Assembly: GCA_903847975.1 (NCBI GenBank)
Contig: CAINFC010000211.1
Location: 1-35,195, forward strand
DNA length: 35,195 nucleotides
Direction of reading: 5' to 3'
Source: an uncultured Acidobacteriota bacterium
GTDB lineage: Bacteria > Acidobacteriota > UBA6911 > CAINFC01
Positions 1,908-33,802 of this stretch are shown piece after piece; the stretch's first letter is position 1, and the number at the start of each line of letters is the position of its first letter. The translations under genes were made by a program, and so were the position numbers. The notes beneath the pieces were generated by a model. The model had not been told where the DNA came from. It ran no database searches and saw nothing but the letters and a program-made list of their open reading frames with translations.

Positions 1908-4900
1908 TCACGGAATCGCCGTCCTGCTGCGCCAGTCCGCGGGCATCAGCAGCTGCATCAGGAACACCTGCTCCTTCCCCGCCTGCTGTCCCCAGTTGTC
2001 CGCCCAGACCACCATGCTTCCGTCATTGGTAATGCTGCCGTGGGTCTCCTCAAAATAAGCGCCGCAGGTATTGTAAACCTTGGCCAGGTAAAAGGCCCGC
2101 GGTCGGGCCGGGTCAAGGCGCAGCAGCAGGTGCGACCGATCCAGCCAGTTCTGTTCCGGGAAAGGCGCTTCCAGGCTGGTGGAGACCAGGCAGTATCCCG
2201 GCGTGTTGCAGGAAATATGAACTCCGGCGTGAAGTCCGGAAGAGGACTCCGAGGCATAGAACAGCCTCAGGAGCGGCGTGCGCTGGGTTCCGCCATAGCT
2301 GCTGTCGCTCTGGAGAATGGGCTGTGTCTTCCAGTCGATGGGGATAAGGTCGATGTAGTCGTTGATCACGTTCTGCATGACGATGATTTCGCGGCCCGCG
2401 ATGTCCAGTCCCACGTCGGAGTGGGCCGTTGTGGCATCGAGGCGGTGGAACCGGGTGAATCCTTTGTCCGCCATGGTCAACCCCTGCAGGTTCCCGCGGT
2501 TGGACTCCGAGCCGCCGATCAGAACGTATTCTCCCAAGGGCGACATGCCGATCCAGTCCAGGTCCCTCTCACCAGCCGGGATTTCATAGAGCCCCAGGAC
2601 TTTGTCCTGCTGCCGGTCCCAGGTGAACATGTGGGTGGCGGCATAGTCTTTTTTCTCGTCCCCCTGCAGGAACAGAGCCCAGTATCGCCCGTCCAGCGAG
2701 GCCTCCCCCTCCTCCAGGGTGGTGACCCGGTAGGTCCCGCCCCTGGCAATGACCGGCCCCAGCACCGGATCTTTGCTGAAATCCTTGACGGTGGTCAGGG
2801 ACAAGGTGGCCGCATGGAACTTGCGGATCCGGAAATCCTCGAGCCCCCAGAGCACGGAGGGATCGGTGCGGTCCCAGCGGGGTTCCAGCAGGGGTACGGC
2901 CGAGACCCAGTTGGCCGGCTGGTTGAACGGCAAGGCGGCCGTCCGGTAAACATGAAAGGGATCCCCCAGGAGAAGGATCAGGGTCTGGTCCCGGTTGAAG
3001 GGATCGAACCGGGAGTACTCATGCCGGCCGGTGGCTCCGTCGATCCGGGTGGCCCGGCGAAGCGTGGTTTGAAAGCGGCTGTCCTTGAAGCAGGCGCCGA
3101 TTTCGGGGACCGGCGCGGGCAGAGCGGAATAGACCGGATTGCTTTCCGCGACCGGGTTGGGAACCTCGACAAAAGAAAAATTAGACGGGTAGTGGCATTC
3201 CGGCGTGAGGCCGGCGGCGGCCTGGGAGGGAACGGCAGCCAGGACGCTTCCGCTGCGCGTGCCGAAAAGGGCGAAGGCCGCCAGCGGCCGGGGCGCGCGA
3301 AGCTCAAAATAGCCGCCGGTCATGGGCGGCAGCGAGGGGATCAGCTCGGAAAGAAGGCGCGAGAAGCGGCCTCCGGCGGGCAGGGTGTAGGAAGCCGTGC
3401 CCAGCTGCCTGGCCTTCGCGTCGTAAACCGCCAGGGAAGCGCTCACCGGCTGATCGTTCAGGTTGATCGCCGCCAGGCCGGTATAGTAGAGGGCATCCTG
3501 GGCCACGTGATGAAAAAGAGACCGGGTGGCGCCACCGGAAAGCAGGGGTAGGGCGCTGCCGAACTGAGCGCCGGCCGCATCGGAGAACCGCACGGCGCCT
3601 GTAAACCGTCCCCCTTCGCTGCGGATATGGACATAGCCCTGGGTCAGCCCGGTTCCGGACAAACCGAAAAAGGAAGCGCTGTCCACCCTGGCGGATCCCC
3701 GGCCGGCAAGATTCAGAACGCCGGGCGAGCCCAGCCGGCGGCCGTCATCCCCCATGAGCTGCAGGGTAAGGCGGTTTCCGTGGTCCTCGAGGTTGACCAG
3801 GTAAACCGCCGTAGACCAGTCGCCCCCCATGGCGCACTGGGCGGCATAGAGGCTCAAGGGGGCATCCGTGCCGACCGGATTCGAGGGCAAAGCCGGAAGA
3901 ACCGCTTTCCAGGCGGAGGGGCCGAAATACTCGACCACGCTTAATCCGCCATCCGCCTCTCCGGCCAGGTACCCGCTGCCGGTTCCCGCCGGCACGATGG
4001 CTCCGGACAGGAGCGTAGTCCTCCCCTGGGGCGGGATCGTTCCCTGGGACGTACTGCCGGGTACTCCATCCGGGGCGACATAAAACAGGCTGTAGCTCAC
4101 GGCCTTTTCCGATGGGTTCACCAGGCTGATCTCCGCGTTATCGACGACCGGCAGGACGAAATACTGCAAAGCCTGGGTCGCGGCCCGGGTTCCGTCCATC
4201 AGGGTCAGGGTGTCATTGTATAGCAGGAAAAATCCGTCGGCTTCCGGGAGGCTGCTTTCCATGCTGAGCCACCCCTCGATGCGGGCCAGGCCCGGGAACA
4301 TCTGGAAAAGGAGTTCCGTCAGCTGATTTCCCGCGGGCACCTTCCTCCTTGCCGAGCCCATGCCGGCCCCCGAGCTTCCCCACAAACGAAACAGGACTTC
4401 CGCCTCCTTTTCCCCGGCATTTACCACCGCCAGTCCGGTGGTCATGGCCGGGTCCTGAACCGCCTTCGGGAAGAAGCGCCAGGAAACGCCCGGCAGCGTG
4501 GTGGTCGAGGTGGTTGGAATGCTGGTGCTGGTGGAAACCGTTACGGTGGTGCTGCTGCCGGTCACGGTGGTCGTGGTCGACGGGCGCAGCGAGCTGCTGG
4601 TAGAAGAGGTGGTGCTGGAGGGCCGCAGCGAGCTGCTGCTGGTTGAAGAGGTCGTCGTCGGAACGACCGTGCTGGTCGTGGTCGTCGGCCGCAGGGACGT
4701 GCTGCTGCTGGTGGTGCTGGTGGAGGTAGTCGGCCGGATGGAGCTGGTGGTGCTGCTGCTGGTGGGAACAGGACCCAGGGTTGTCGTGGGGGACTGGCCG
4801 GCTGCCCAGCGGTTGTAAAAAATGTTCAGCAGAGGGATGAACTCCGCGGTGGCCTTGAGGTTGCCGGCCTGGCTGGGATGATCGTCTCCCGAAGGGTACT

Positions 4901-5756
4901 CCAGTATGTTGGGATTGGAATCGTTGTCTCCGTCGGTCTTGTGCTGAACGGCGCTCTGCCAGTAGCGGTGGTGGTTCCCGCCGGAGCTGTTCAGGTCGTT
5001 GATGTTGGGATTGCCGCCGTTGGTGGTCAGCACATTGTAGAAATCGAAAACCGCCACATTGTTCAGCGGATATCCGCTGAGCCACTCCTGGACCAGCCAG
5101 TTGTTCAGCGCCCGGGCATGGGCGCTGTAGGTCGCATCGCTGAGGGGCGGGGCGGCGATCAGAAGGAAGAGCTTGTCCGGGCGGCTTTGAAAATAGTTGC
5201 GTAAATCCAGGTATATGCCTTTGGCGTTGGCCAGAGTATGATAATCGGAGCCGGCATCCTCCCCGCGCAGGGGATTGCTGCCGATGGCCGGCACGGGATC
5301 GCTGAGGCTGCCCCGCAGCGCGGAGTTCGGGAAGCAGGATTTGAACAGGATCACCTGGTTCTGCCCGCCGGGATTGACCGCGCGCCGCGAGTAACTGCAG
5401 TGCGGCTCGCTCTCCGCGTAGAGGGCGGACAGGATGGAACCGCTCTGCGGTCCGCGGAACCAGTTCCAGAAGTGGCCGATGTCGGTGGTGTCGCCGATCC
5501 CTTCGGGACCCCAGCCGTAATTCGTGTCGCTGACATAATAGTTGTTATCCCGCAAGGCAATTCCCAGTCCGCCGTTGTCATCCGAAAGCCAGTTTTCACC
5601 GGTGGAATGGTGGATAAAAATCAACCGGACGGTCTGTGACGGGGGATTGGGGTTGTCCGCCAGGTACGTGTTCCGCGAAGCGGCGGGGAGCGTACCAACC
5701 AGAAACGGGAAAACAATCCATGCGCCAAGGGCCGGCAAGGCAAATCTGATCTTCAT
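1908..5756 (-). CDS. Large secreted SGNH-like hydrolase with Ser/Thr linker, Ig-like repeats and C-terminal propeller-like region (1282 aa)
   Basis: A signal peptide (about residues 1-26) leads into an SGNH/GDSL-like domain (about 40-315). Its first block is LIFIHHSTGENWL (45-57) and its last block is DDHPSQAGN (291-299), which resembles SGNH block V. Residues 322-421 are a Ser/Thr-rich linker. Residues 426-845 appear to be four related beta-sandwich repeats of about 105 residues. Each has a TGLAVVN- or TAVYLVN-like strand, a turn with DG or DA, and an LPAGG-like strand. Residues 860-1282 are beta-rich, with strands such as GEYVLIGGSE and SMVVWADN that suggest a propeller, but I cannot name the family. 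ATG 5756 has GGAGG upstream. Substrate is unknown; a cell-surface esterase or carbohydrate-binding role is inference. It heads the operon with the kelch and cREC genes. Confidence 0.72.
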   Translation of the reverse strand: MKIRFALPALGAWIVFPFLVGTLPAASRNTYLADNPNPPSQTVRLIFIHHSTGENWLSDDNGGLGIALRDNNYYVSDTNYGWGPEGIGDTTDIGHFWNWFRGPQSGSILSALYAESEPHCSYSRRAVNPGGQNQVILFKSCFPNSALRGSLSDPVPAIGSNPLRGEDAGSDYHTLANAKGIYLDLRNYFQSRPDKLFLLIAAPPLSDATYSAHARALNNWLVQEWLSGYPLNNVAVFDFYNVLTTNGGNPNINDLNSSGGNHHRYWQSAVQHKTDGDNDSNPNILEYPSGDDHPSQAGNLKATAEFIPLLNIFYNRWAAGQSPTTTLGPVPTSSSTTSSIRPTTSTSTTSSSTSLRPTTTTSTVVPTTTSSTSSSSLRPSSTTSSTSSSLRPSTTTTVTGSSTTVTVSTSTSIPTTSTTTLPGVSWRFFPKAVQDPAMTTGLAVVNAGEKEAEVLFRLWGSSGAGMGSARRKVPAGNQLTELLFQMFPGLARIEGWLSMESSLPEADGFFLLYNDTLTLMDGTRAATQALQYFVLPVVDNAEISLVNPSEKAVSYSLFYVAPDGVPGSTSQGTIPPQGRTTLLSGAIVPAGTGSGYLAGEADGGLSVVEYFGPSAWKAVLPALPSNPVGTDAPLSLYAAQCAMGGDWSTAVYLVNLEDHGNRLTLQLMGDDGRRLGSPGVLNLAGRGSARVDSASFFGLSGTGLTQGYVHIRSEGGRFTGAVRFSDAAGAQFGSALPLLSGGATRSLFHHVAQDALYYTGLAAINLNDQPVSASLAVYDAKARQLGTASYTLPAGGRFSRLLSELIPSLPPMTGGYFELRAPRPLAAFALFGTRSGSVLAAVPSQAAAGLTPECHYPSNFSFVEVPNPVAESNPVYSALPAPVPEIGACFKDSRFQTTLRRATRIDGATGRHEYSRFDPFNRDQTLILLLGDPFHVYRTAALPFNQPANWVSAVPLLEPRWDRTDPSVLWGLEDFRIRKFHAATLSLTTVKDFSKDPVLGPVIARGGTYRVTTLEEGEASLDGRYWALFLQGDEKKDYAATHMFTWDRQQDKVLGLYEIPAGERDLDWIGMSPLGEYVLIGGSESNRGNLQGLTMADKGFTRFHRLDATTAHSDVGLDIAGREIIVMQNVINDYIDLIPIDWKTQPILQSDSSYGGTQRTPLLRLFYASESSSGLHAGVHISCNTPGYCLVSTSLEAPFPEQNWLDRSHLLLRLDPARPRAFYLAKVYNTCGAYFEETHGSITNDGSMVVWADNWGQQAGKEQVFLMQLLMPADWRSRTAIP
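4494..4793 (-). repeat. Ser/Thr-rich linker with recurring RPTT/RPST units
   Basis: This part of the SGNH protein gene encodes residues 322-421, almost all Ser and Thr. The motif (I/L)RP(T/S) recurs at about residues 341, 356, 378 and 391. The DNA is an imperfect tandem repeat of GTGGTG, GCTGCT and CGGCCGCAG-like units. Such linkers keep secreted domains apart and are often glycosylated; that is family knowledge, not shown here. Length variation between strains would be expected. Confidence 0.8.
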
Positions 5757-7086: not shown

Positions 7087-8226
7087 TCAGGGGAGCGAGG
7101 GGCTGCCGGGGCGGAGTCGGGTGGTCGGAAAAACGCCCGCCTGGAACGCTTCCTCGCAATACCAGAACGGGGCCAGCAGGTCGCGGTGCCGGTAATAGTT
7201 GTTGGCTACGCAGCTGGCCAGGCAAAAGGTCCGGTTGAGGCAGTCGGCACAGATCCCCTTCAGCTCCGCAGGCAGACCGCGGCGCAGCTCCTGGAGGATC
7301 GGGTTGCGGTTCCAGACGTCGGCCAGGCGGTCCGCGCGGGCATCGCCGAAGACCAGCTCCGGCACGGTGGTGCCGATGCCGCACAGGGCGTATTTGCCGT
7401 TGCCCAGCACCCCGAGGATACCGAAGATGCCGCAGCGGCTGCGCTCCGCGCCGAGCAGGCGGTGCAGCGGCTGAAAGGCCGCGGGGTGCGAGTAGACCAC
7501 CCGGATTTTCGAGCCGGGCACCAGTTCGCGCTCCACCCACTCCCCGAAGCGCACCAGCTCCCCGATCGACAGGGTGTGGCCGGTTTCCGCCAGCCGCTCG
7601 CCGCGGGCCACCGGGGTGACCAGGTTGAACTTCACCGATGCGCACCCCTCCCGTTCGGCCAGCCGGACCACGGCCTCCATCTGTCCGGCGTTGTGCTTCA
7701 TGACCGACATGATCAGCTGCGGACGATAGCCGGTACGGACCAGCAGACGCACCCCTTCGAGGGCCTGCTCGAAGCTGCCCTCCACGCCGCGCACCCAGTC
7801 GTGGGTTGCCGGATCCACTCCGTCGATGCTCACCGAAATAAAGCGCCGCGGATTGGCCAGGATCTTATCCACCAGCGGCGGAGTCAGCTTGACTCCGTTG
7901 GTTTCCAGGGTCAAACCGAGCTTCTCTCCCTGGATAAAGTCGAGGATGGCTTCGATTTCCGGGTGGATCAGCGGCTCCCCGCCGGTCAGCTTGATCGAGT
8001 TCATTCCGAGCGGTCGAGCCTGGCGGACAATGTCCTTAAACAGGTCCAGCGGCAGGCAGGGAGCTTTCATTTCCGCACCCCCTTCGTAGGGAGGGTTGAT
8101 CCAGCAGTGGCGGCAGCGCAGATTGCACCCTTCGGTCAGGTAGAAATAGATGGTGTTGAGGTAATAGCCGCACTCCGGTGCGGGAGGCGCGGCGCTTTTT
8201 TCAGAGGGCACTTTCGTTTCGCTCAT
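7087..8226 (-). CDS. scmF: Radical SAM/SPASM enzyme, ScmF-like (379 aa)
   Basis: The radical SAM motif CNLRCRHC supplies C34, C38 and C41 for the SAM-binding 4Fe-4S cluster, and TGGEP (81-85) follows. The C-terminus has a complete SPASM pattern: C265, G277-x4-C282, C326-x2-C329-x5-C335-x3-C339 and C357, enough for two auxiliary clusters. The opening YFYLTEGCNLRCRHCW and the ending CEEAFQAGVFP match my memory of ScmF of the SynChlorMet cassette. SPASM enzymes of this type modify ribosomal peptides, so peptide modification is the likely role, with substrate unknown. ATG 8226 has AAAGAGAAA just upstream. It lies 71 bases after the ScmE-like gene, third in the minus-strand cassette. A generic SPASM maturase is the alternative reading. 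Confidence 0.78.
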   Translation of the reverse strand: MSETKVPSEKSAAPPAPECGYYLNTIYFYLTEGCNLRCRHCWINPPYEGGAEMKAPCLPLDLFKDIVRQARPLGMNSIKLTGGEPLIHPEIEAILDFIQGEKLGLTLETNGVKLTPPLVDKILANPRRFISVSIDGVDPATHDWVRGVEGSFEQALEGVRLLVRTGYRPQLIMSVMKHNAGQMEAVVRLAEREGCASVKFNLVTPVARGERLAETGHTLSIGELVRFGEWVERELVPGSKIRVVYSHPAAFQPLHRLLGAERSRCGIFGILGVLGNGKYALCGIGTTVPELVFGDARADRLADVWNRNPILQELRRGLPAELKGICADCLNRTFCLASCVANNYYRHRDLLAPFWYCEEAFQAGVFPTTRLRPGSPSLP

Positions 8227-8297
8227 TTTCTCTTTCAGACGGTTGCTTGTCGGTCGGTTCAGGAAAAGTTGAAGAAGGGGAAGTGCCCGTCGCCCCC

Positions 8298-9392
8298 TCA
8301 GGCGGGCAGGCGTCCGCCGGCCGCCAGGAAGTCGCGGTAGCAGGCATCCGGTGAAGGCCTGTTCTCATCGCCAATTACGTTGTAGGCCATGGCCGGGCAT
8401 CCGCCACGGCAGGTGCGCAAATAGCGGCAGCCCCGGCAGTGGTCGAATCGCTCGAGGGGCATATCGCGCCGTTCACGCAGCCGCTGCAGCTCGGGGTGGT
8501 TCTGCCAGATTTCCATCAGCGGATCGCGGTTGATTTCGCCGAGGGCGATATGGTTGAGCTGAGTGCAGGGGACCATGGTCCCGTCGGAGCGCACCGCCAT
8601 CGTGGCGAACACCCCACCGCAGCTTCGCAGGAAACCGCAATCGGGCAGCGATTCGCGCCCGTCGGCCAGGGCCTTCTCCATCTTGCGCCACATGCGCAGC
8701 GAGGCCTGTGGCCCGGCCTGCGCGGAGATGCGGCCCGGGTATTTCCGCTCCAGGGCTTCGAGCCGGACCATGGCCCGGCTGTACTCTTCGACGCTCAACT
8801 CCACCTCGGAGCTGTTCTGGCGGCAAAGCCCGCTGTAGGAGGCCACGTTGGTGGAAAAGCTGTGCAGCCCCACTTCTTCCAGCAGCAGCCGGGCGGCCTC
8901 GTCCAGAGCGTCCAGGTTGTGGCGGTGGATGGTCAGCCGGACCGTGGCCGGCAGACCGTGCCGCAGGGCGGCTTGCAGCCCCCGCAGCGCTTTTTCGAAG
9001 GAGCCGTCGCCGCGGCAGCGGTCGTGCGATTCCGGGCCCGGCCCGTCGATGGATACCTGGAAGGAGTTGCAGCGCCGGGTGGACTTTAAAAAGGCGGCGG
9101 TCTCGTTGTCGAGCAGCGTTCCGTTGCTCAGCACCGAAAAGCGCATCCGGTTGCGTACCACTCCTTCGATCACCTGCCGGAAGTCCCTGCGGATCAGGGG
9201 CTCTCCGCCTGCCAGGCATACTTCCAGGACCGCAGCGCGGGTGCACTCTTCGAAAAACTGCAGCCAGCTCTCGAGCGGCAGATCCACGCCGGTGTCCCCG
9301 TCGCTCGAGAAAAAGTAGCAGTAGGAGCAGCGCAGATTGCAGCGCGAGGTGATATCGATATCGATCTTCCTGGGGGAGAACGGCACTCTCAT
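8298..9392 (-). CDS. scmE: Radical SAM/SPASM enzyme, ScmE-like (364 aa)
   Basis: The motif CNLRCSYC gives C18, C22 and C25 for the SAM cluster, followed by AGGEP (61-65). The SPASM region holds C252, C258, G271-x4-C276, C319-x2-C322-x5-C328-x3-C332 and C351. Segments such as RNRMRFSVLSNGTL, HSFSTN and PSPDACYRDFLAAGG resemble ScmE as I recall it. It probably works with the PqqD-like protein encoded immediately upstream, which would present a peptide substrate. The start ATG 9392 lies 13 bases after the PqqD-like stop, with a GAAGG a little far upstream, consistent with translational coupling. The two radical SAM enzymes are not simple duplicates: they share the architecture but differ strongly in sequence. 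Confidence 0.8.
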   Translation of the reverse strand: MRVPFSPRKIDIDITSRCNLRCSYCYFFSSDGDTGVDLPLESWLQFFEECTRAAVLEVCLAGGEPLIRRDFRQVIEGVVRNRMRFSVLSNGTLLDNETAAFLKSTRRCNSFQVSIDGPGPESHDRCRGDGSFEKALRGLQAALRHGLPATVRLTIHRHNLDALDEAARLLLEEVGLHSFSTNVASYSGLCRQNSSEVELSVEEYSRAMVRLEALERKYPGRISAQAGPQASLRMWRKMEKALADGRESLPDCGFLRSCGGVFATMAVRSDGTMVPCTQLNHIALGEINRDPLMEIWQNHPELQRLRERRDMPLERFDHCRGCRYLRTCRGGCPAMAYNVIGDENRPSPDACYRDFLAAGGRLPA

Positions 9393-9405
9393 GGCGAGGG
9401 TACCT

Positions 9406-9690
9406 TCAGCATTCGACTGCGATCAGGCCGCGTTTTTCCAGGTCCGCAAGAAAGTGGCGGAGGTGTTCCGGGGCCGTGTCCGGGATGCAGCCTTCGCACT
9501 CCTCGCGCATCGCCCCGAGGATGGAGGCGGCATCGTACCGGCCGTCGAGCATCTTCCAGAAAAAGGGGCTGACCGGGTCGAGTCCGTGGCTTTTCCCGAT
9601 GTCGGAGTTGAATAGAACGGTCCGGCCGCCATTTTCCCGCCGGAAAACAACCGGCGGGTTGGCCGTCGGGCAGCCCGATTGCAGGTTCAT
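9406..9690 (-). CDS. scmD: PqqD-like peptide chaperone, ScmD-like (94 aa)
   Basis: This is a RiPP recognition element-type protein. The opening NPPVVFRREN, the strand TVLFNSDIGKSHGLDPVSPFFW, read here as two adjoining stretches, and LDGRYDAASIL form the winged-helix pattern of PqqD proteins. The stretch AMREECEGC and the final EKRGLI match ScmD-type members. Such proteins bind the leader of a precursor peptide and hand it to a radical SAM enzyme. ATG 9690 was chosen because AAGGAAG lies eight bases upstream; starts further upstream would add an unlikely N-terminus. A TACAAT (minus strand, 9737-9732) sits 42 bases before the start but lacks a good -35. It is first in the cassette with the ScmE- and ScmF-like genes. 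No precursor gene is visible next to it. Confidence 0.78.
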   Translation of the reverse strand: MNLQSGCPTANPPVVFRRENGGRTVLFNSDIGKSHGLDPVSPFFWKMLDGRYDAASILGAMREECEGCIPDTAPEHLRHFLADLEKRGLIAVEC

Positions 9691-9774
9691 GATGATCGCT
9701 TCCTTTCCAGCAGAGTGATTGCAAGCCACCTATTGTAGGCCAAGTCAAGAGTGAATGCCAGAGCCAACTGCTTT

Positions 9775-18359: not shown

Positions 18360-19844
18360 TTACACCGCGAGGTCTTCCTCGATTACCTTGAAGCCCATCA
18401 GGTCTCCCAGGCGCCGCATGCCGCGGACGTGGTTTCCGTAGAAGACCGCGCGGTGCAGCATGGGCATGGCGCCGGCGTACTGCGAGAGGTCGCCGGGGCT
18501 GCCGGGGTTGACGATCTGGCCGGCGCCCCAGTTGAGGAACAGCTGCCGGGCGCTGCGGACGCTTTGCGTAAACTGCGTACGGCAGGCCAGGGGGCTGACG
18601 CCGGTTTCCAGAATCTTCCCGGGGACGGCCAGCATGGTCTCGAGGTTTACCAGCTTGGCCATGGTCACCGCCTCTCCGACCTGCCATTGCACCTGGAGGG
18701 CCACGCCGCCGCCGCTGTCCGTCTGGTTGCGGATCACGAACGGCATGCGGCTGCCGTCGGCTCTGCGGGTAAAGGAGGTGCAGTGGAACTGAACCACGGC
18801 ATTCTTGGATTCGTCGATCACCGGGTCGGTGATGAATCCGGGGGCCCGGAAGGCATGGGCGAAAAGCAGCATGGTGAGCGTGGAATCGATATCCCCTTCG
18901 CAGGCTCCGACCATGCCAAGGTCATTGAGCTTGCTGAAGGTGAGACAGCCCCGGGGGTTTCCCATGCACGCCGCGCTGCAGATCCCCTGGGCGCGCTCCT
19001 GGATCATCAGCTTTTTTGCGGCCAGGTAGTAGCGGGCGGAGTCGATGATCTCCTGCCGGGTGGGCTCAAGAATGCCGATGGCCGGCTTGATCCAGTAGTT
19101 CTCGGCTTCCGCTTCGGCCGCTTTGGGATCGATCGATTTGGCCAGTTCGAGGATCTGTTCGTTGGGGATGGTGATCAGTTCGGCGCCCAGCCTGTTTTTG
19201 ACCTGCTCGGCCGAGCAGGCCGCCTTGGTGCCGCGCGGGCCGTTGACCGCCAGTATGCGGGTCTGCTTCATCAGCGAGGGGACGCGCAGCAGCGCCACCG
19301 CCTCCTCGAGTTCGCCCCAGTCGGAGGTCGAGAGCAGCAGGACCTTGCGGCCTTTCCACTGCTGGTGCCACATCCAGCCATGGCCGCTGAACGGCTGGAA
19401 AAAGGAGACCGCCGGCTTGTCGATGCCGAAGCTGAGCTTTTCCAGGGTGGCATAATCTCCGCCGTGCCCGGAAAGCCAGATGATCAGCAGCCCGTCGGCC
19501 GAGGCGGCCCGGGCCGCGATCTGGGCCACGTCGGTGGGCGGGATGGTCTCGCCGCCGACGAATTTTACGTCGCCGAGCCGGGTTTCGAGGGCGGTCAGGT
19601 AGTCGTTCATCCTGGCCAGCTCCTCTTTCCCCCAGGTCAGGTACTGCACGGTCTTGCCGGCGGCGTTGACGCTGGAGCCCGACCGTCCGATGAAGATTTT
19701 ATGGATCGTCGCCGGCCGCAGCTTCGGCCATTCGTCCCGTTCCGGATCGACCGGTACGGTTACGGCAGGCGGTGCGGCCAACAGAGAGCCGGCGGCCGCG
19801 CCGGTTCCCAGGAATGCCCTGCGGCTGAGATGTTCTTTGTTCAT
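18360..19844 (-). CDS. Tat-exported protein related to L-fucose/L-arabinose isomerases (494 aa)
   Basis: The N-terminus SRRAFLGTGAAAGSLLAAPP (7-26) is a good twin-arginine signal. The body resembles the COG2407 sugar-isomerase fold: an early LIIWLSGHGGD segment, a central ILAVNGPRG strand, CSAACMGNPRG, and the core ACEGDIDSTLTMLLFA, equivalent to the CExD region that binds metal in fucose isomerases. The C-terminal part (about 370-490) matches the isomerase C-domain. Typical isomerases are cytoplasmic, so a Tat signal is unusual; several exported paralogues of unknown role exist in related bacteria. ATG 19844 was chosen because AGGAG lies seven bases upstream; the ATG two codons earlier is too close. 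It follows the NTF2-like lipoprotein gene by 112 bases. Confidence 0.75.
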   Translation of the reverse strand: MNKEHLSRRAFLGTGAAAGSLLAAPPAVTVPVDPERDEWPKLRPATIHKIFIGRSGSSVNAAGKTVQYLTWGKEELARMNDYLTALETRLGDVKFVGGETIPPTDVAQIAARAASADGLLIIWLSGHGGDYATLEKLSFGIDKPAVSFFQPFSGHGWMWHQQWKGRKVLLLSTSDWGELEEAVALLRVPSLMKQTRILAVNGPRGTKAACSAEQVKNRLGAELITIPNEQILELAKSIDPKAAEAEAENYWIKPAIGILEPTRQEIIDSARYYLAAKKLMIQERAQGICSAACMGNPRGCLTFSKLNDLGMVGACEGDIDSTLTMLLFAHAFRAPGFITDPVIDESKNAVVQFHCTSFTRRADGSRMPFVIRNQTDSGGGVALQVQWQVGEAVTMAKLVNLETMLAVPGKILETGVSPLACRTQFTQSVRSARQLFLNWGAGQIVNPGSPGDLSQYAGAMPMLHRAVFYGNHVRGMRRLGDLMGFKVIEEDLAV

Positions 19845-27899: not shown

Positions 27900-29120
27900 C
27901 TAAACCCAGGCTGCGGCGGTTGTCGTTACCAGCATCCGGAGCAATCGGAGAAACCGGAGCACCTCCCGCGATCGGAAGCGATGTGCTTTTGAGGATGGGA
28001 GCCGGCTGGTGCCGGCCAGGCACATTATCTCTACCAACAGGTTCTCGAGCTCGATCCGGATATCCTCCATGCGCTGCCAGCGCCGGTCGGGATTTTTTCT
28101 AAGGCACCGAATGATCGTCTTTTCCAGACGCAAGGGGATATCCGCTGCCAGTTGCGACGGCGGGATGGGGTCCTGCTTGACAACCGCAGCCAGGGTCACC
28201 AGGGTCGAAAAAAATGATTTATCCGCAAACGCGCAGCGGCCGGTGACCATTTCATAGAGCAGGGATCCGAACGAGAAGATATCGCTGCGCACATCGATGG
28301 GCTTTCCTACCGCCTGTTCCGGGGACATGTAGGCGACCGTACCCAGGACGCCGCCTTTCCGACTCAGAAGCTGCCCGGAAGCGGAGGACCTGGAATCGTC
28401 GGCGGACAACGGCCGAAAGATTTTCGCCAGTCCGAAGTCCAGTAATTTCACCTCGCCCCGGTGGGTAATCATGACGTTGGAAGGCTTCAGATCGCGGTGG
28501 ATGATGCCTGCCTCGTGAGCCGCTGCCAGGGCATCGGCAATCTGGATGGCGTATTTCAGTCCCTCTCCCAGGGGCAACCTCCGGTGCCGGAGGCAGTCGG
28601 AAAGGGTCTGTCCGTCCACAAATTCCATGACAATGAAGTTCGCCTCCGGGTCCTCGTGAATATCGTGGATCTGTATAATGTGCGGGTGGTTGAGCAGGGA
28701 GGCGGTCCGTGCTTCCTGGATGAAGCGCCGCTTATATTCCGGGTCGGCGACGGCTTTTCCGGGCAGTACCTTGATGGCTACGGAACGTGCCAGGAGGCAG
28801 TCCCGCGCTTTGTACACCACCCCCATGCCGCCTTCCCCGATTTTTTCGGTAATGTGATAATGTGCCAGGTTTCTGCCCGAAAAATCCGGAGGGAAGTCCC
28901 GTCGCTGATCCCGGGCTAAAATCCGGGCGGCCACCTCCAGCGCCGACGATTCCAGCGGGCTCTGTGATCCGGCGCTCTGATCCAGAAGCGATGCGACCTG
29001 CCGCCGCAGCGACGGATTCCCGGCGCAGGCTGAATCCAGAAAGCCCTTCCTCTCTTCCGGCTTGTGCCTCCGTGCCGATTCATAGAGCCGTTTGACCTGC
29101 TGCCAGAGCTCCGGGGTCAT
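27900..29120 (-). CDS. Ser/Thr protein kinase lacking its membrane and sensor part (406 aa)
   Basis: A complete Hanks-type kinase follows the N-terminal MTPELWQQVK module (1-50). It has the glycine loop IGEGGMGVVYKA (94-105), K117 in VAIKVL, HRDLKPSNVM, DFGLAKI and GTVAYMSPEQ. The related kinase at 30816-33671 goes on through a transmembrane helix and a propeller. This one aligns only up to the juxtamembrane part, then diverges into an odd Arg/Leu-rich tail ending TTTAAAWV and stops where the helix would be. Truncation is therefore likely, though the catalytic domain looks intact. ATG 29120 overlaps the sigma factor stop as ATGA, with GGAGGAAGG directly upstream, so it is translationally coupled to the sigma gene. 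Confidence 0.85.
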   Translation of the reverse strand: MTPELWQQVKRLYESARRHKPEERKGFLDSACAGNPSLRRQVASLLDQSAGSQSPLESSALEVAARILARDQRRDFPPDFSGRNLAHYHITEKIGEGGMGVVYKARDCLLARSVAIKVLPGKAVADPEYKRRFIQEARTASLLNHPHIIQIHDIHEDPEANFIVMEFVDGQTLSDCLRHRRLPLGEGLKYAIQIADALAAAHEAGIIHRDLKPSNVMITHRGEVKLLDFGLAKIFRPLSADDSRSSASGQLLSRKGGVLGTVAYMSPEQAVGKPIDVRSDIFSFGSLLYEMVTGRCAFADKSFFSTLVTLAAVVKQDPIPPSQLAADIPLRLEKTIIRCLRKNPDRRWQRMEDIRIELENLLVEIMCLAGTSRLPSSKAHRFRSREVLRFLRLLRMLVTTTAAAWV

Positions 29121-29695
29121 CCTTCCTCCGCCTGCTTCATCTCCCGCTCCAGCCATGCCTTGGCCGCTGTCCAGTCGCGCCGTACCGTCCGACTGGTGAC
29201 CTTCAGAACCTCGGCGATCTCCTTCGCGCTCAGCCCTCCGAAAAAGCGCAGCTCCACAACCCGGGCTTCCCGCGGAGCGAAGCCTGCAAGGCGCCGCAGG
29301 GATTCATCGAGCAGCAGAAAGTCCACATCCGGCTGAAGAGTCATGGCACACTCTTCCAGCAGTTCCTGCCGGATCAGTTTTCCTTCTCTTTTTCGGTAAT
29401 CCCGTGCCCGGGCGAAATCGATCAGGATCCGGCGCATCAGGTTGGCCATGATAGCGAAAAAATGAGCACGGCTTTGCCAATTTACTTTGTCGGATTCGAT
29501 GAGACGCAGGTAAGCCTCGTTGACCAGGGCCGTGGTTTGCAGGGTGTGGTCGATGCGTTCGTGCCGCAAAAAACGATGGGCCAGCCGGTGCAGTTCATTG
29601 TGAACCAGCGGGATAAGAGACTCCAGGGCCTCCTGGTCCCCGCGGGACCAATCCCGGAGCAGCTGAGTAACCTGCAGGGAATACCCCTTCCCCAT
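29117..29695 (-). CDS. ECF-type RNA polymerase sigma factor (192 aa)
   Basis: An ECF sigma factor of the acidobacterial/planctomycete kind. Region 2 contains LVNEAYLRLIES and the segment SRAHFFAIMANLMRRILIDF, and region 4 contains FAPREARVVELRFFGGLSAKEIAEVL, each read in shorter stretches; the recognition helix is KVTSRTVRRDWTAAKAWL. No anti-sigma gene is adjacent. Instead the coupled downstream gene is a Ser/Thr kinase, and kinase-linked ECF groups are known to be controlled by phosphorylation (established for some groups, inferred here). ATG 29695 has a GGGG about eight bases upstream. Compare the 44-codon remnant at 33668-33802, which matches both ends of this protein. Confidence 0.9.
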   Translation of the reverse strand: MGKGYSLQVTQLLRDWSRGDQEALESLIPLVHNELHRLAHRFLRHERIDHTLQTTALVNEAYLRLIESDKVNWQSRAHFFAIMANLMRRILIDFARARDYRKREGKLIRQELLEECAMTLQPDVDFLLLDESLRRLAGFAPREARVVELRFFGGLSAKEIAEVLKVTSRTVRRDWTAAKAWLEREMKQAEEG

Positions 29696-30815: not shown

Positions 30816-33671
30816 TCAGCGAAAGTTTTCCACCAGCATCAGGTCGATGTTCGGGTCCTCGTAGCGGCTGTAGAGAAATGTTTTCCGGTCCGGACTGACA
30901 GCCAGGCCCTGAAAAATGGGGCCGTCCAGCCTGGTGAGCACCCGCTTTTCGGATGTCGCCAGGTCCAGAAAGACCAGTTCGTACCAGACCTCCTGGGGCC
31001 GCTTGCGGATATAGTAAATTCCCTCGGTGCGCACCGCAAAAGCTCGCCTGTGGGCGAAGGGGTCCAATATGGCAGGCGTTCCTCCCGCCACCGGTACCGT
31101 CCGCAATCCCGGGCCCCAGCCGGTGTAATAAAGCGTCCGGCCATCCATGGAAACCTGGCCATAGTCGGCCCCATGCCGGGTGATCTGCTCGGCCTTTCCG
31201 CCGGCGGCAGGCATACGCCAGATCTGGGATGTTCCGCTGCGCTCGGATCGGAAATAGATCCATTTCCCGTCGGGAGAATAGCTGCCGTTGACTTCGGTAT
31301 TCGGATCCGAGGTGACGCGCTCGACAGGCCCGCCTGCGGCCTTGACCCGGCCCAGGCCGACTTCGCCGTCGGGTGTGTTCAGGTCGAACAGGAGAAATTT
31401 ACCGTCCGGGGACCACTGCGGGCAGCCTGACGATGATTTGGGGATGAACGTCATCTGCACCGGAGCGGAGCCGTCGGCATGGGCCAGCCAGATATCCGCG
31501 CTTTCGCCGGCCCGGTCGGAGGCGAAAACGATTTTGGTGCCATCCGGTGAATAGGCGGGACTGAATTCTCTCAGGGACGAGACAATGAAAGGGCGGGGAG
31601 CCTCTCCTTCCCGATAGCACCAGATGTCCTGGTCCTGATTGATTTTGTTGAAGGAAAAGGCCAGCCGGTTTCCGGAGCGGGCAACCGCCGGCTGGGACGC
31701 ATAGGGGCCGGCATACTCCAGGCGCTGGGGATTACGGCCATCCTTCCCGACGCGCCAGAGGTAGGGCTTCATCGCCACGAACCTCGAGGCGCTGTAGATC
31801 ACCGATTCACTATCCGGGCTCCAGGCGACGCCGGAAAAGAAAGAATACTGCTGCGTCAGCCGCCGGGCCTTCCCCAAAGCAGATCCGTCCGGGCTCAGAT
31901 CCAGACAATAGATGTCGCAGACCGGGTACATGGGGCAGCGGGTAAAAGCCAGCCGCCTTCCATCGGGCGAAACGGCGGGATGCCAGTCTTTCTGCGGGGA
32001 GCCGGGCACGGTGATCTGCCGCGGGCGGCCTCCTTCGACAGGAATCAGGTAGAGGCCGCTCCCCTCCTGGCGGTCCGCTGCGTCCCAGCTGGATTTGGCT
32101 GTCGCCAGCCACTCGCCGTCCGGAGTCCAGGATAGCGAGACGCCCTGAAAGTCCGAGATCTTCCGTTCCTGCCCGCCGAGCGGGGAGATGGCGTAAATGC
32201 CTCCCTTGCCTTCGCCGGTACGATAAAAGGCAATCTGCTTCCCGTCGGGAGACCATGCGGGGTAGGTGTCCGGCAGCGGATCGGTGGTCAGCCGCAGGGC
32301 ATACGATTCGCCTACGACCTTTACGTAAATATCCGTGTTGTCTCCCTGCTCCCCGTTCCAGGCGAATGCCAACTGGTTTCCATCCGGAGAAAAGCTCGGA
32401 AAAGTCTCCGATCCCGGGTCGGAGGTCAGAACTGTAACCCGGGGCGCTGGCGGCTCGCTTTCCGTGAGGGTCCGCCAGAACCATGCCGCAGCCGCAGCGG
32501 CCGACGCGAGAAGGAGTAGCGCGGCCCACCATCCGATGCGGCGCGCTCTGGCGGAAGGCCAACGGCCGGAGCCGGGAAGGCTGCCGATTTCTGCCAGCAG
32601 TTCTTCGAGCTCTATTCTGACATCCTGCATGTGCTGCCAGCGCCGGGCGGTATCCTTGCGAAGACAGCGCAAAATGGTTTTTTCCAGAACCGGCGGTATA
32701 TCTGCTGCCAGTTCCGATGGCGGTATGGGATCCTTTTGGACAACGGCAGCCAGCGTGGAGATGAACGAGTCGCCCGCAAAGGCGCGTCGGCCGGTGGCCA
32801 TCTCATAGAGCAGGGATCCGAAGGAAAAGATGTCGGTGCGCATGTCGACCGGCTTTCCTTCCGCCTGCTCCGGGGACATGTAGGCGGCCGTACCCAGAAT
32901 GCTGCCTTCCCGGGTCAGGTCTTTCCCGAATGAGGAGATTCCGGAATCGGTTCCGGCCGGCAGCCGGATGAGTTTGGCCAGTCCGAAGTCGAGTACTTTC
33001 ACCTCGCCGCGGTCGGTGATCATGATGTTGGAGGGCTTCAGGTCGCGGTGAACGATACCGGCTTCATGGGCCGCTGCCAGGGCATCGGCGATCTGGACCG
33101 CGAACTTCAGCGCCTCGCCCAGGGGTAATTTTCGGCGATCGAGGTAATCGGAGAGGGTTTTCCCGGTTACATATTCCATGACGATGAAGTCCATCCCGTC
33201 GTCTTCCTGTATGTCATGGACCCTTACGATGTGTGGGTGGCTGAGAGAAGAGGACACCCGGGCTTCCCGGAAAAAGCGTCGTCTTTGTTCCGCATCGGCG
33301 ACGGCTTTCCCGGGCAGCACCTTGATGGCCACCGTCCGGTCGAGGCGGCGATCGTGCGCTTTGTAGACGACGCCCATGCCTCCTTTGCCGATCGTTTCGG
33401 TGAGGTCATATTGAAGCAGGGTTCGCCCGGAAAGATCCGGCAGAGGTTCCGGCGGACTGTTCCGCACCGGGGCCCGGTGTGCGGTCTCGGGCGCCGGAGA
33501 ATTCGAGGGGGGCTCGGAGCCGTTGCGCTCTGCAAGTTGCGATTCGACCTCCTGACGCAACGGCAGGTCTCCGGCGCAGGCCGCTTCCAGATAGCTTTCC
33601 CTGTCTTCCGGAGGCCGCTCCAGAGCCGACTGAACCAGCTGCCTGACCTGCCGCCAGCGCTCCGGGGTCAT
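30816..33671 (-). CDS. Transmembrane Ser/Thr kinase with C-terminal WD40/TolB-like propeller (951 aa)
   Basis: Residues 1-50 are the MTPERW N-terminal module common in acidobacterial kinases. The kinase domain (about 88-360) has IGKGGMGVVYKA (94-105), K117, HRDLKPSN (208-215), DFGLAK (228-233) and GTAAYMSPEQ. One transmembrane helix (380-399) follows. Residues 410-951 carry repeated SPDG motifs such as FSPDGNQLAF, WSPDGKQIAF, VSPDGRRLAF and YSPDGKWIYF, giving a TolB/WD40-like propeller outside the cytoplasm. It presumably senses an envelope signal and phosphorylates a cytoplasmic protein; no partner is identified. ATG 33671 overlaps the stop of the 44-codon sigma remnant as ATGA and has GGAGGG upstream. 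The propeller is strongly similar, also at DNA level, to the partial gene at 33903-35195. Confidence 0.92.
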   Translation of the reverse strand: MTPERWRQVRQLVQSALERPPEDRESYLEAACAGDLPLRQEVESQLAERNGSEPPSNSPAPETAHRAPVRNSPPEPLPDLSGRTLLQYDLTETIGKGGMGVVYKAHDRRLDRTVAIKVLPGKAVADAEQRRRFFREARVSSSLSHPHIVRVHDIQEDDGMDFIVMEYVTGKTLSDYLDRRKLPLGEALKFAVQIADALAAAHEAGIVHRDLKPSNIMITDRGEVKVLDFGLAKLIRLPAGTDSGISSFGKDLTREGSILGTAAYMSPEQAEGKPVDMRTDIFSFGSLLYEMATGRRAFAGDSFISTLAAVVQKDPIPPSELAADIPPVLEKTILRCLRKDTARRWQHMQDVRIELEELLAEIGSLPGSGRWPSARARRIGWWAALLLLASAAAAAAWFWRTLTESEPPAPRVTVLTSDPGSETFPSFSPDGNQLAFAWNGEQGDNTDIYVKVVGESYALRLTTDPLPDTYPAWSPDGKQIAFYRTGEGKGGIYAISPLGGQERKISDFQGVSLSWTPDGEWLATAKSSWDAADRQEGSGLYLIPVEGGRPRQITVPGSPQKDWHPAVSPDGRRLAFTRCPMYPVCDIYCLDLSPDGSALGKARRLTQQYSFFSGVAWSPDSESVIYSASRFVAMKPYLWRVGKDGRNPQRLEYAGPYASQPAVARSGNRLAFSFNKINQDQDIWCYREGEAPRPFIVSSLREFSPAYSPDGTKIVFASDRAGESADIWLAHADGSAPVQMTFIPKSSSGCPQWSPDGKFLLFDLNTPDGEVGLGRVKAAGGPVERVTSDPNTEVNGSYSPDGKWIYFRSERSGTSQIWRMPAAGGKAEQITRHGADYGQVSMDGRTLYYTGWGPGLRTVPVAGGTPAILDPFAHRRAFAVRTEGIYYIRKRPQEVWYELVFLDLATSEKRVLTRLDGPIFQGLAVSPDRKTFLYSRYEDPNIDLMLVENFR
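31672..31739. repeat. 68-nt tract identical to 34762-34829
   Basis: Within the propeller region of the kinase gene, 68 consecutive bases are identical to the neighbouring paralogue, offset by 3090 bases. It encodes a conserved segment around the residues NPQRLEYAGPYASQPAVARSG. Identity without silent changes over this length, while flanking parts differ, points to recent duplication or gene conversion. Confidence 0.85.
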
Positions 33672-33802
33672 GATCCCTCCGCCCGCTTCATTTCCCTCTC
33701 CAGCCACGCCCTGGCGGTCGTCCGGTCGCGCCGCACGACCAGGCGGCGGCAGCGCGACGGCCCCGGTAACCGGGTGACCTGACCGGAGTCATCTTCTCTC
33801 AT
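33668..33802 (-). pseudogene. Internally deleted ECF sigma gene kept as a 44-codon in-frame ORF
   Basis: ATG 33802 opens a 44-aa frame that begins MREDDSGQVTRL and ends VVRRDRTTARAWLEREMKRA plus EGS. The first 12 residues match the start of the intact sigma factor at 29117-29695 (M....S.QVT.L). The last 23 or so match its recognition-helix end (TVRRDWTAAKAWLEREMKQA). The middle, about 155 residues, is missing. The joint lies near PGPSRC. GGAG stands six bases before the ATG, and the TGA stop overlaps the kinase start as ATGA, exactly as in the intact module. It therefore cannot act as a sigma factor but may still serve as a leader ORF for coupled kinase translation (inference). The remaining gap 33803-33902 shows no gene. 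Confidence 0.85.

Follow-up and report, generated by a model that had tools for sequence, protein, structure and literature searches.

A ScmD-ScmE-ScmF operon from an uncultured Acidobacteriota bacterium as the probable enzyme half of a split SynChlorMet cassette

The SynChlorMet cassette (ScmA-F; NCBIfam TIGR04248-TIGR04252) has curated models, and no paper naming it was found in the literature searched. Nor did any paper in that literature bring together four of the five topics radical SAM, HprK, RiPP, nucleotidyltransferase and signal peptidase. In the LPP pathway (LppA/B/K/S/D/N; PMC13381572), LppK places several phosphates on a serine, the leader is cut by LppS with the help of an RRE, and LppD is the exporter. 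As described there, LPP contains no radical SAM enzymes, whereas Scm has two, plus a cysteine-repeat core. YxxP and WxxP motifs are read by the RREs of lasso and LPP pathways (PMC13381572, PMC12710340). In prochlorosin biosynthesis a single promiscuous enzyme, ProcM, serves many precursors (PMC10783134). The split Scm system described here is a variant of a known, uncharacterised cassette type.

We analysed a 35,195-nt stretch of DNA (the window; contig C211) from the draft genome of an uncultured Acidobacteriota bacterium. An earlier note on this DNA had described a PqqD-like gene and two radical SAM genes in a tight minus-strand operon, and this description was borne out. The operon comprises the following features:

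9406-9690, minus strand: ScmD-like PqqD/RRE protein, 94 aa (TIGR04248, 68.1 bits; PF05402, 38.7 bits)
8298-9392, minus strand: ScmE radical SAM/SPASM enzyme, 364 aa (TIGR04250, 532.7 bits)
7087-8226, minus strand: ScmF radical SAM/SPASM enzyme, 379 aa (TIGR04251, 497.1 bits)
9732-9761, minus strand: putative promoter of sigma-70 type, some 40 nt upstream of scmD; weak consensus match (9/12)

All three genes (9690-7087) are intact, with intergenic gaps of 13 and 71 nt. Promoter-like matches near scmD numbered two in the region against 0.5 expected, so the promoter call is weak. Both ScmE and ScmF scored above the curated NCBIfam cut-off of 400 bits for TIGR04250 and TIGR04251, with second-ranked families at no more than 127 bits, in line with the SynChlorMet D-E-F assignment made earlier. 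For the third member the profile check came out differently: TIGR04248 was the best family for the window ScmD, yet its score fell below the cut-off of 100 bits. The protein did pass the PF05402 cut-off (23.4 bits). The predicted fold of the window ScmD best matched the lasso RRE TbiB1 with bound leader (5v1v_A; TM 0.76/0.80), and PqqD and other RREs matched as well. The protein is presumed to be a leader-binding adaptor.

A CxxxCxxC motif and, as claimed before, the complete seven-cysteine SPASM pattern were located in both radical SAM enzymes (C258, C276, C319, C322, C328, C332 and C351 in ScmE; C265, C282, C326, C329, C335, C339 and C357 in ScmF). These cysteines are invariant in alignments with relatives, and the whole pattern was kept in 79 of 80 full-length ScmE sequences. 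The nearest solved structures by sequence profile are the sactipeptide maturase SkfB for ScmE (6efn, 110 bits; distant) and the PQQ maturase PqqE for ScmF (6c8v, 82 bits; distant). Assignment of a bond type from these structures was rejected as they are too distant.

The operon is flanked by genes for a glycine-zipper protein, an M28 peptidase and a GFO/IDH/MocA oxidoreductase, and farther away lie an ABC half-transporter pair, a GH106 protein and Ser/Thr kinases. No flanking gene by itself marks a peptide pathway. Elsewhere in the window, a minus-strand ORF of 1282 aa (1908-5756) had no Pfam or NCBIfam match, and of the two Ser/Thr protein kinases (27900-29156 and 30816-33707) one is joined to PD40/WD40-like repeats.

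The neighbourhood of ScmE was surveyed by one scan of 84,980 species genomes, which gave 80 ScmE loci. These were found in Lentisphaerota, Verrucomicrobiota, Kiritimatiellota, Thermodesulfobacteriota, Nitrospirota, Chlorobium, Chloroflexota and Acidobacteriota, as well as in Aminicenantes, Planctomycetota, Fermentibacteria, WOR-3, KSB1 and methanogenic archaea; none was found in viral contigs. ScmF accompanied ScmE in 75 loci. In 45 loci a PqqD gene stood directly upstream of ScmE, and 20 loci had a PqqD domain fused to ScmE, an arrangement that speaks for joint action of ScmD and ScmE. The earlier note had proposed a search for small ORFs co-occurring with scmDEF in relatives, and clustering of neighbouring ORFs indeed yielded one peptide family, A, in 50 of the 80 loci. 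Profile searches added ScmC in 51, with A and C adjacent in 39, many loci terminating at contig ends. The commonest gene order was D-E-F-A-C. Among the fuller loci (≥12 kb, n = 47), an archaeal-type signal peptidase was present in 32, an MsbA-like exporter in 25 and an NTP_transf_5 gene in 21; the signal peptidase is sometimes fused to ScmC.

Peptide A is small and consists of a [YFW]xxP leader followed by CxxGxx[AP] repeats. The leader motif occurred in 60 of 63 peptides. In the cores, which are rich in G, A, S, T, C and N, the spacing between cysteines is mostly 10-11 residues; the +3 position relative to Cys is glycine in 77%, and the +6 position is A, P or V in 63%. A Chlorobium peptide beside ScmF reached 21.8 bits against the TIGR04252 cut-off of 35, indicating that the ScmA model is narrow. 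Scans of the Chlorobium neighbourhood brought up no ScmB, for which no model was identified. In another locus (L055, 7489-7980), a PqqD domain lies in frame with a YEKP-led, cysteine-containing tail in a 163-aa protein, apparently adaptor and precursor in one.

No such peptide accompanies the operon in the window. A precursor profile built from peptides of other genomes gave nothing credible in the 35-kb window, either in start-to-stop ORFs (best E 3) or in stop-to-stop frames (best E 0.18). No relic of a hidden or decayed precursor was visible in the operon gaps, and no ScmA-like or ScmC-like gene was seen near D-E-F. The absence of a precursor and of ScmA- and ScmC-like genes reported in the earlier note therefore stands. 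That note left two options for the substrate, one encoded elsewhere or a normal protein. The first of these gained support, as further contigs of this genome encode three precursor-type peptides and two ScmC-like proteins; there is no need to invoke a normal protein.

The source genome (8.1 Mb in 326 contigs, 99% complete, 1.8% contamination) encodes a single ScmE and a single ScmF. Its six reading frames were searched with a profile built from 28 peptides of other genomes, which returned the following candidates:

C145, 2788-3189, plus strand: 133-aa peptide, followed by a ScmC-like gene (profile match 2791-3060, E 1.3e-6)
C312, 19226-19396, minus strand: 56-aa peptide adjoining ScmC and a second ScmD, in the order ScmD-ScmC-A (profile match 19220-19378, E 0.002)
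C80, about 90783-91061, plus strand: lone peptide (profile match 90831-91061, E 1.3e-8)

The C145 ScmC-like gene scored 115.5 bits, under the TIGR04249 cut-off of 125, while the C312 run passed both relevant cut-offs (ScmD 104.4 bits, ScmC 127.8 bits). The PqqD protein beside this ScmC and precursor is thus a ScmD by the curated threshold, whereas that of the window is not. The identity of the C312 peptide rests partly on these neighbours, its profile match being weak alone. The C80 peptide (L137, 8700-9062) has a YEPP leader and, unlike most others, a Gly-Gly motif (DLDQVSGG) before the repeats, which suggests cleavage by a bacteriocin-type peptidase. Across the genome, TIGR04252 gave chance-level matches only (best 17 bits), so that no peptide reaches its cut-off. 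Two weaker precursor matches were discarded: one (C21:14005) lies inside a large unrelated ORF and the other (C138) belongs to a different cassette with its own SPASM enzyme.

Other peptide-type loci were observed in the same genome, which holds nine other SPASM matches and 12 PqqD matches. The C138 cassette (L036, 6093-8544) has a SPASM radical SAM enzyme, a KKKYEAP-leader peptide, an HprK-like gene and a PqqD gene in one run. C22 (L035, 6160-12756) carries a further cassette of similar build, in which two radical SAM-like genes and an archaeal-type signal peptidase are joined by PqqD and HprK-like genes and by a small peptide whose leader contains WVKP. On C245 (L037, 625-1093) a PqqD gene adjoins a 51-aa ORF that has a YEPP leader and may encode a precursor of the lasso type. 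A 158-aa ORF on C185 (L189, 8693-10348) adjoins an NTP_transf_5 gene away from any PqqD gene, and by eye resembles a lasso leader peptidase (B2). Neither a signal peptidase nor NTP_transf_5 was found beside the Scm modules of this genome; C22 and C101 carry signal-peptidase-like genes within other PqqD loci, and NTP_transf_5 genes lie on C185 and C71.

HprK kinases belong to the PEP carboxykinase superfamily. The C312 ScmC was predicted with high confidence to have this fold (pLDDT 90.5), and its P-loop residues G131, K132 and T134 are invariant. Scm and LPP (PMC13381572) have in common the YxxP leader, a discrete RRE and an HprK-like kinase; the fuller Scm cassettes also share the archaeal-type signal peptidase, MsbA-like exporter and NTP transferase. 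By this analogy, complete Scm cassettes look like an LPP chassis to which two radical SAM enzymes have been added, and the gene set suggests a radical-SAM-modified, phosphorylated peptide as the likely product. The full LPP set (RRE, HprK-like kinase, signal peptidase, MsbA-like exporter and NTP transferase) is absent from the window, with parts scattered in the genome.

Taken together, we consider it probable that D-E-F in the window is the enzyme half of a split SynChlorMet RiPP cassette, acting in trans on scattered precursors. These would be supplied from C145, C312 and C80, away from the enzyme operon. One or both PqqD-like proteins would bind the leader through its YxxP-type motif and hand the CxxGxx[AP] repeat core to ScmE and ScmF, in an order that we assume. 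Binding of peptide A leaders by ScmD is favoured because its predicted fold resembles lasso RREs that bind YxxP leaders. ScmE and ScmF may then introduce radical-SAM modifications, among which thioether cross-links at the repeated cysteines are the likeliest; we infer this chemistry from the cysteine repeats of the core and from the nearest solved relatives, SkfB and PqqE. The HprK/PEPCK-fold ScmC would phosphorylate the peptide, and a protease and exporter would finish it. The missing precursor is best read as precursors in trans, on good but indirect evidence.

Peptide and enzyme track each other across the phylum. Among 396 genomes, ScmE (E ≤ 1e-60) was found in nine, the peptide (E ≤ 1e-4) in nine and both in eight (one-sided Fisher p 6e-15; p 5e-10 when the three genomes that fed the profile are removed; kinship is ignored). 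One family supplies five of the nine ScmE genomes and the single peptide-only genome, which inflates this significance. The genome-wide search also misses some precursors: it found no match in the genomes of ScmE loci L056, L064, L065 and L130, and in L130 a peptide beside ScmF was detected by a local profile. Split layouts recur. A-C or A-D-C modules lie on contigs without E-F in four further cases (L178, L179, L180 and L182; some contigs are short), and the genome of the Acidobacteriota locus L061 (same contig as G320) has a second precursor on another contig.

The different histories of the parts are the best argument that they do not cooperate. The D-E-F proteins of the window have their nearest relatives among Lentisphaerota-type sequences (59-64% for ScmE; a set of five, tree support 100/99), whereas the C312 ScmD comes nearest to its Acidobacteriota counterpart in L061 (58.5%). 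We hold the trans reading with no greater confidence for this reason. D-E-F might have been gained without, or have lost, its own A-C genes, the other A-C modules being leftovers and D-E-F itself idle or awaiting loss. One genome without ScmE (G357) also carries peptide-plus-ScmC modules, and transposase-like ORFs lie near the end of C312. Against such a remnant, the three genes are intact and no expected cysteine is missing, three precursors and two P-loop ScmC genes remain in the genome, and genomes without ScmE are nearly devoid of the peptide. We regard a remnant as unlikely. The abundance of other SPASM and PqqD genes in this genome would also allow the CxxG-repeat peptides to be served by other SPASM enzymes, with ScmE and ScmF acting on an ordinary protein or an unrecognised peptide type. 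But the same peptide type lies beside ScmE/ScmF in dozens of loci from many phyla and tracks ScmE within the phylum, and a different peptide accompanies at least one further SPASM enzyme, that of C138, making this alternative rather improbable.

The scattered layout could itself be an artefact, given a draft of 326 contigs with 1.8% contamination, if the modules were truly neighbours or some contigs came from another organism. However, the nearest contig ends are 7 kb and 25 kb away from D-E-F and 2.8 kb or more from the C145 and C80 peptides; adjacency of the operon to these peptides would thus require a misjoined contig. Comparison of the ends of the window, C312 (3') and C145 gave no shared 15-mers and no overlap. 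Tetranucleotide correlation of C211, C145, C312 and C80 with the rest of the genome was 0.946-0.975, compared to at most 0.90 for other genomes, and the four contigs thus fit one genome. An assembly or binning error of this kind seems very improbable, and we retain the split cassette acting in trans as the preferred reading.

Compared with SynChlorMet as modelled, the source genome agrees in ScmE and ScmF and, on C312, in ScmD and ScmC, all above cut-off. It differs in that the set is distributed across four or more contigs, the ScmD adjoining E-F scores under the threshold, the ScmA model is passed by none of the peptides and the window lacks ScmC. The window ScmD is predicted to fold like lasso RREs (TbiB1, 5v1u/5v1v; 6jx3) and PqqD (5sxy), and the peptides have a YxxP-type leader; unlike lasso RREs, this ScmD stands with two SPASM enzymes and has no lasso cyclase or leader peptidase beside it. 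The working principle of one enzyme set for several scattered precursors is that of the prochlorosins (PMC10783134), but the enzymes and peptides are unrelated, and here use of the three precursors as substrates is presumptive.

More tentatively, Scm may be a broad RiPP class in which an LPP chassis (RRE, HprK-like kinase, archaeal-type signal peptidase, MsbA-like exporter and NTP transferase) is combined with a SPASM radical SAM pair on CxxG-repeat peptides, giving a cross-linked, phosphorylated, exported peptide. The present genome would then use one enzyme operon for at least three unlinked precursors, two of them with their own kinase. Substrate candidates are now concrete, in cis for dozens of relatives and in trans in the source genome. 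The leader motif and the adaptor fold predict binding. With these and a link to a characterised phosphopeptide pathway, the product of an orphan radical SAM class becomes directly testable. A cassette without a visible precursor need not lack a substrate.
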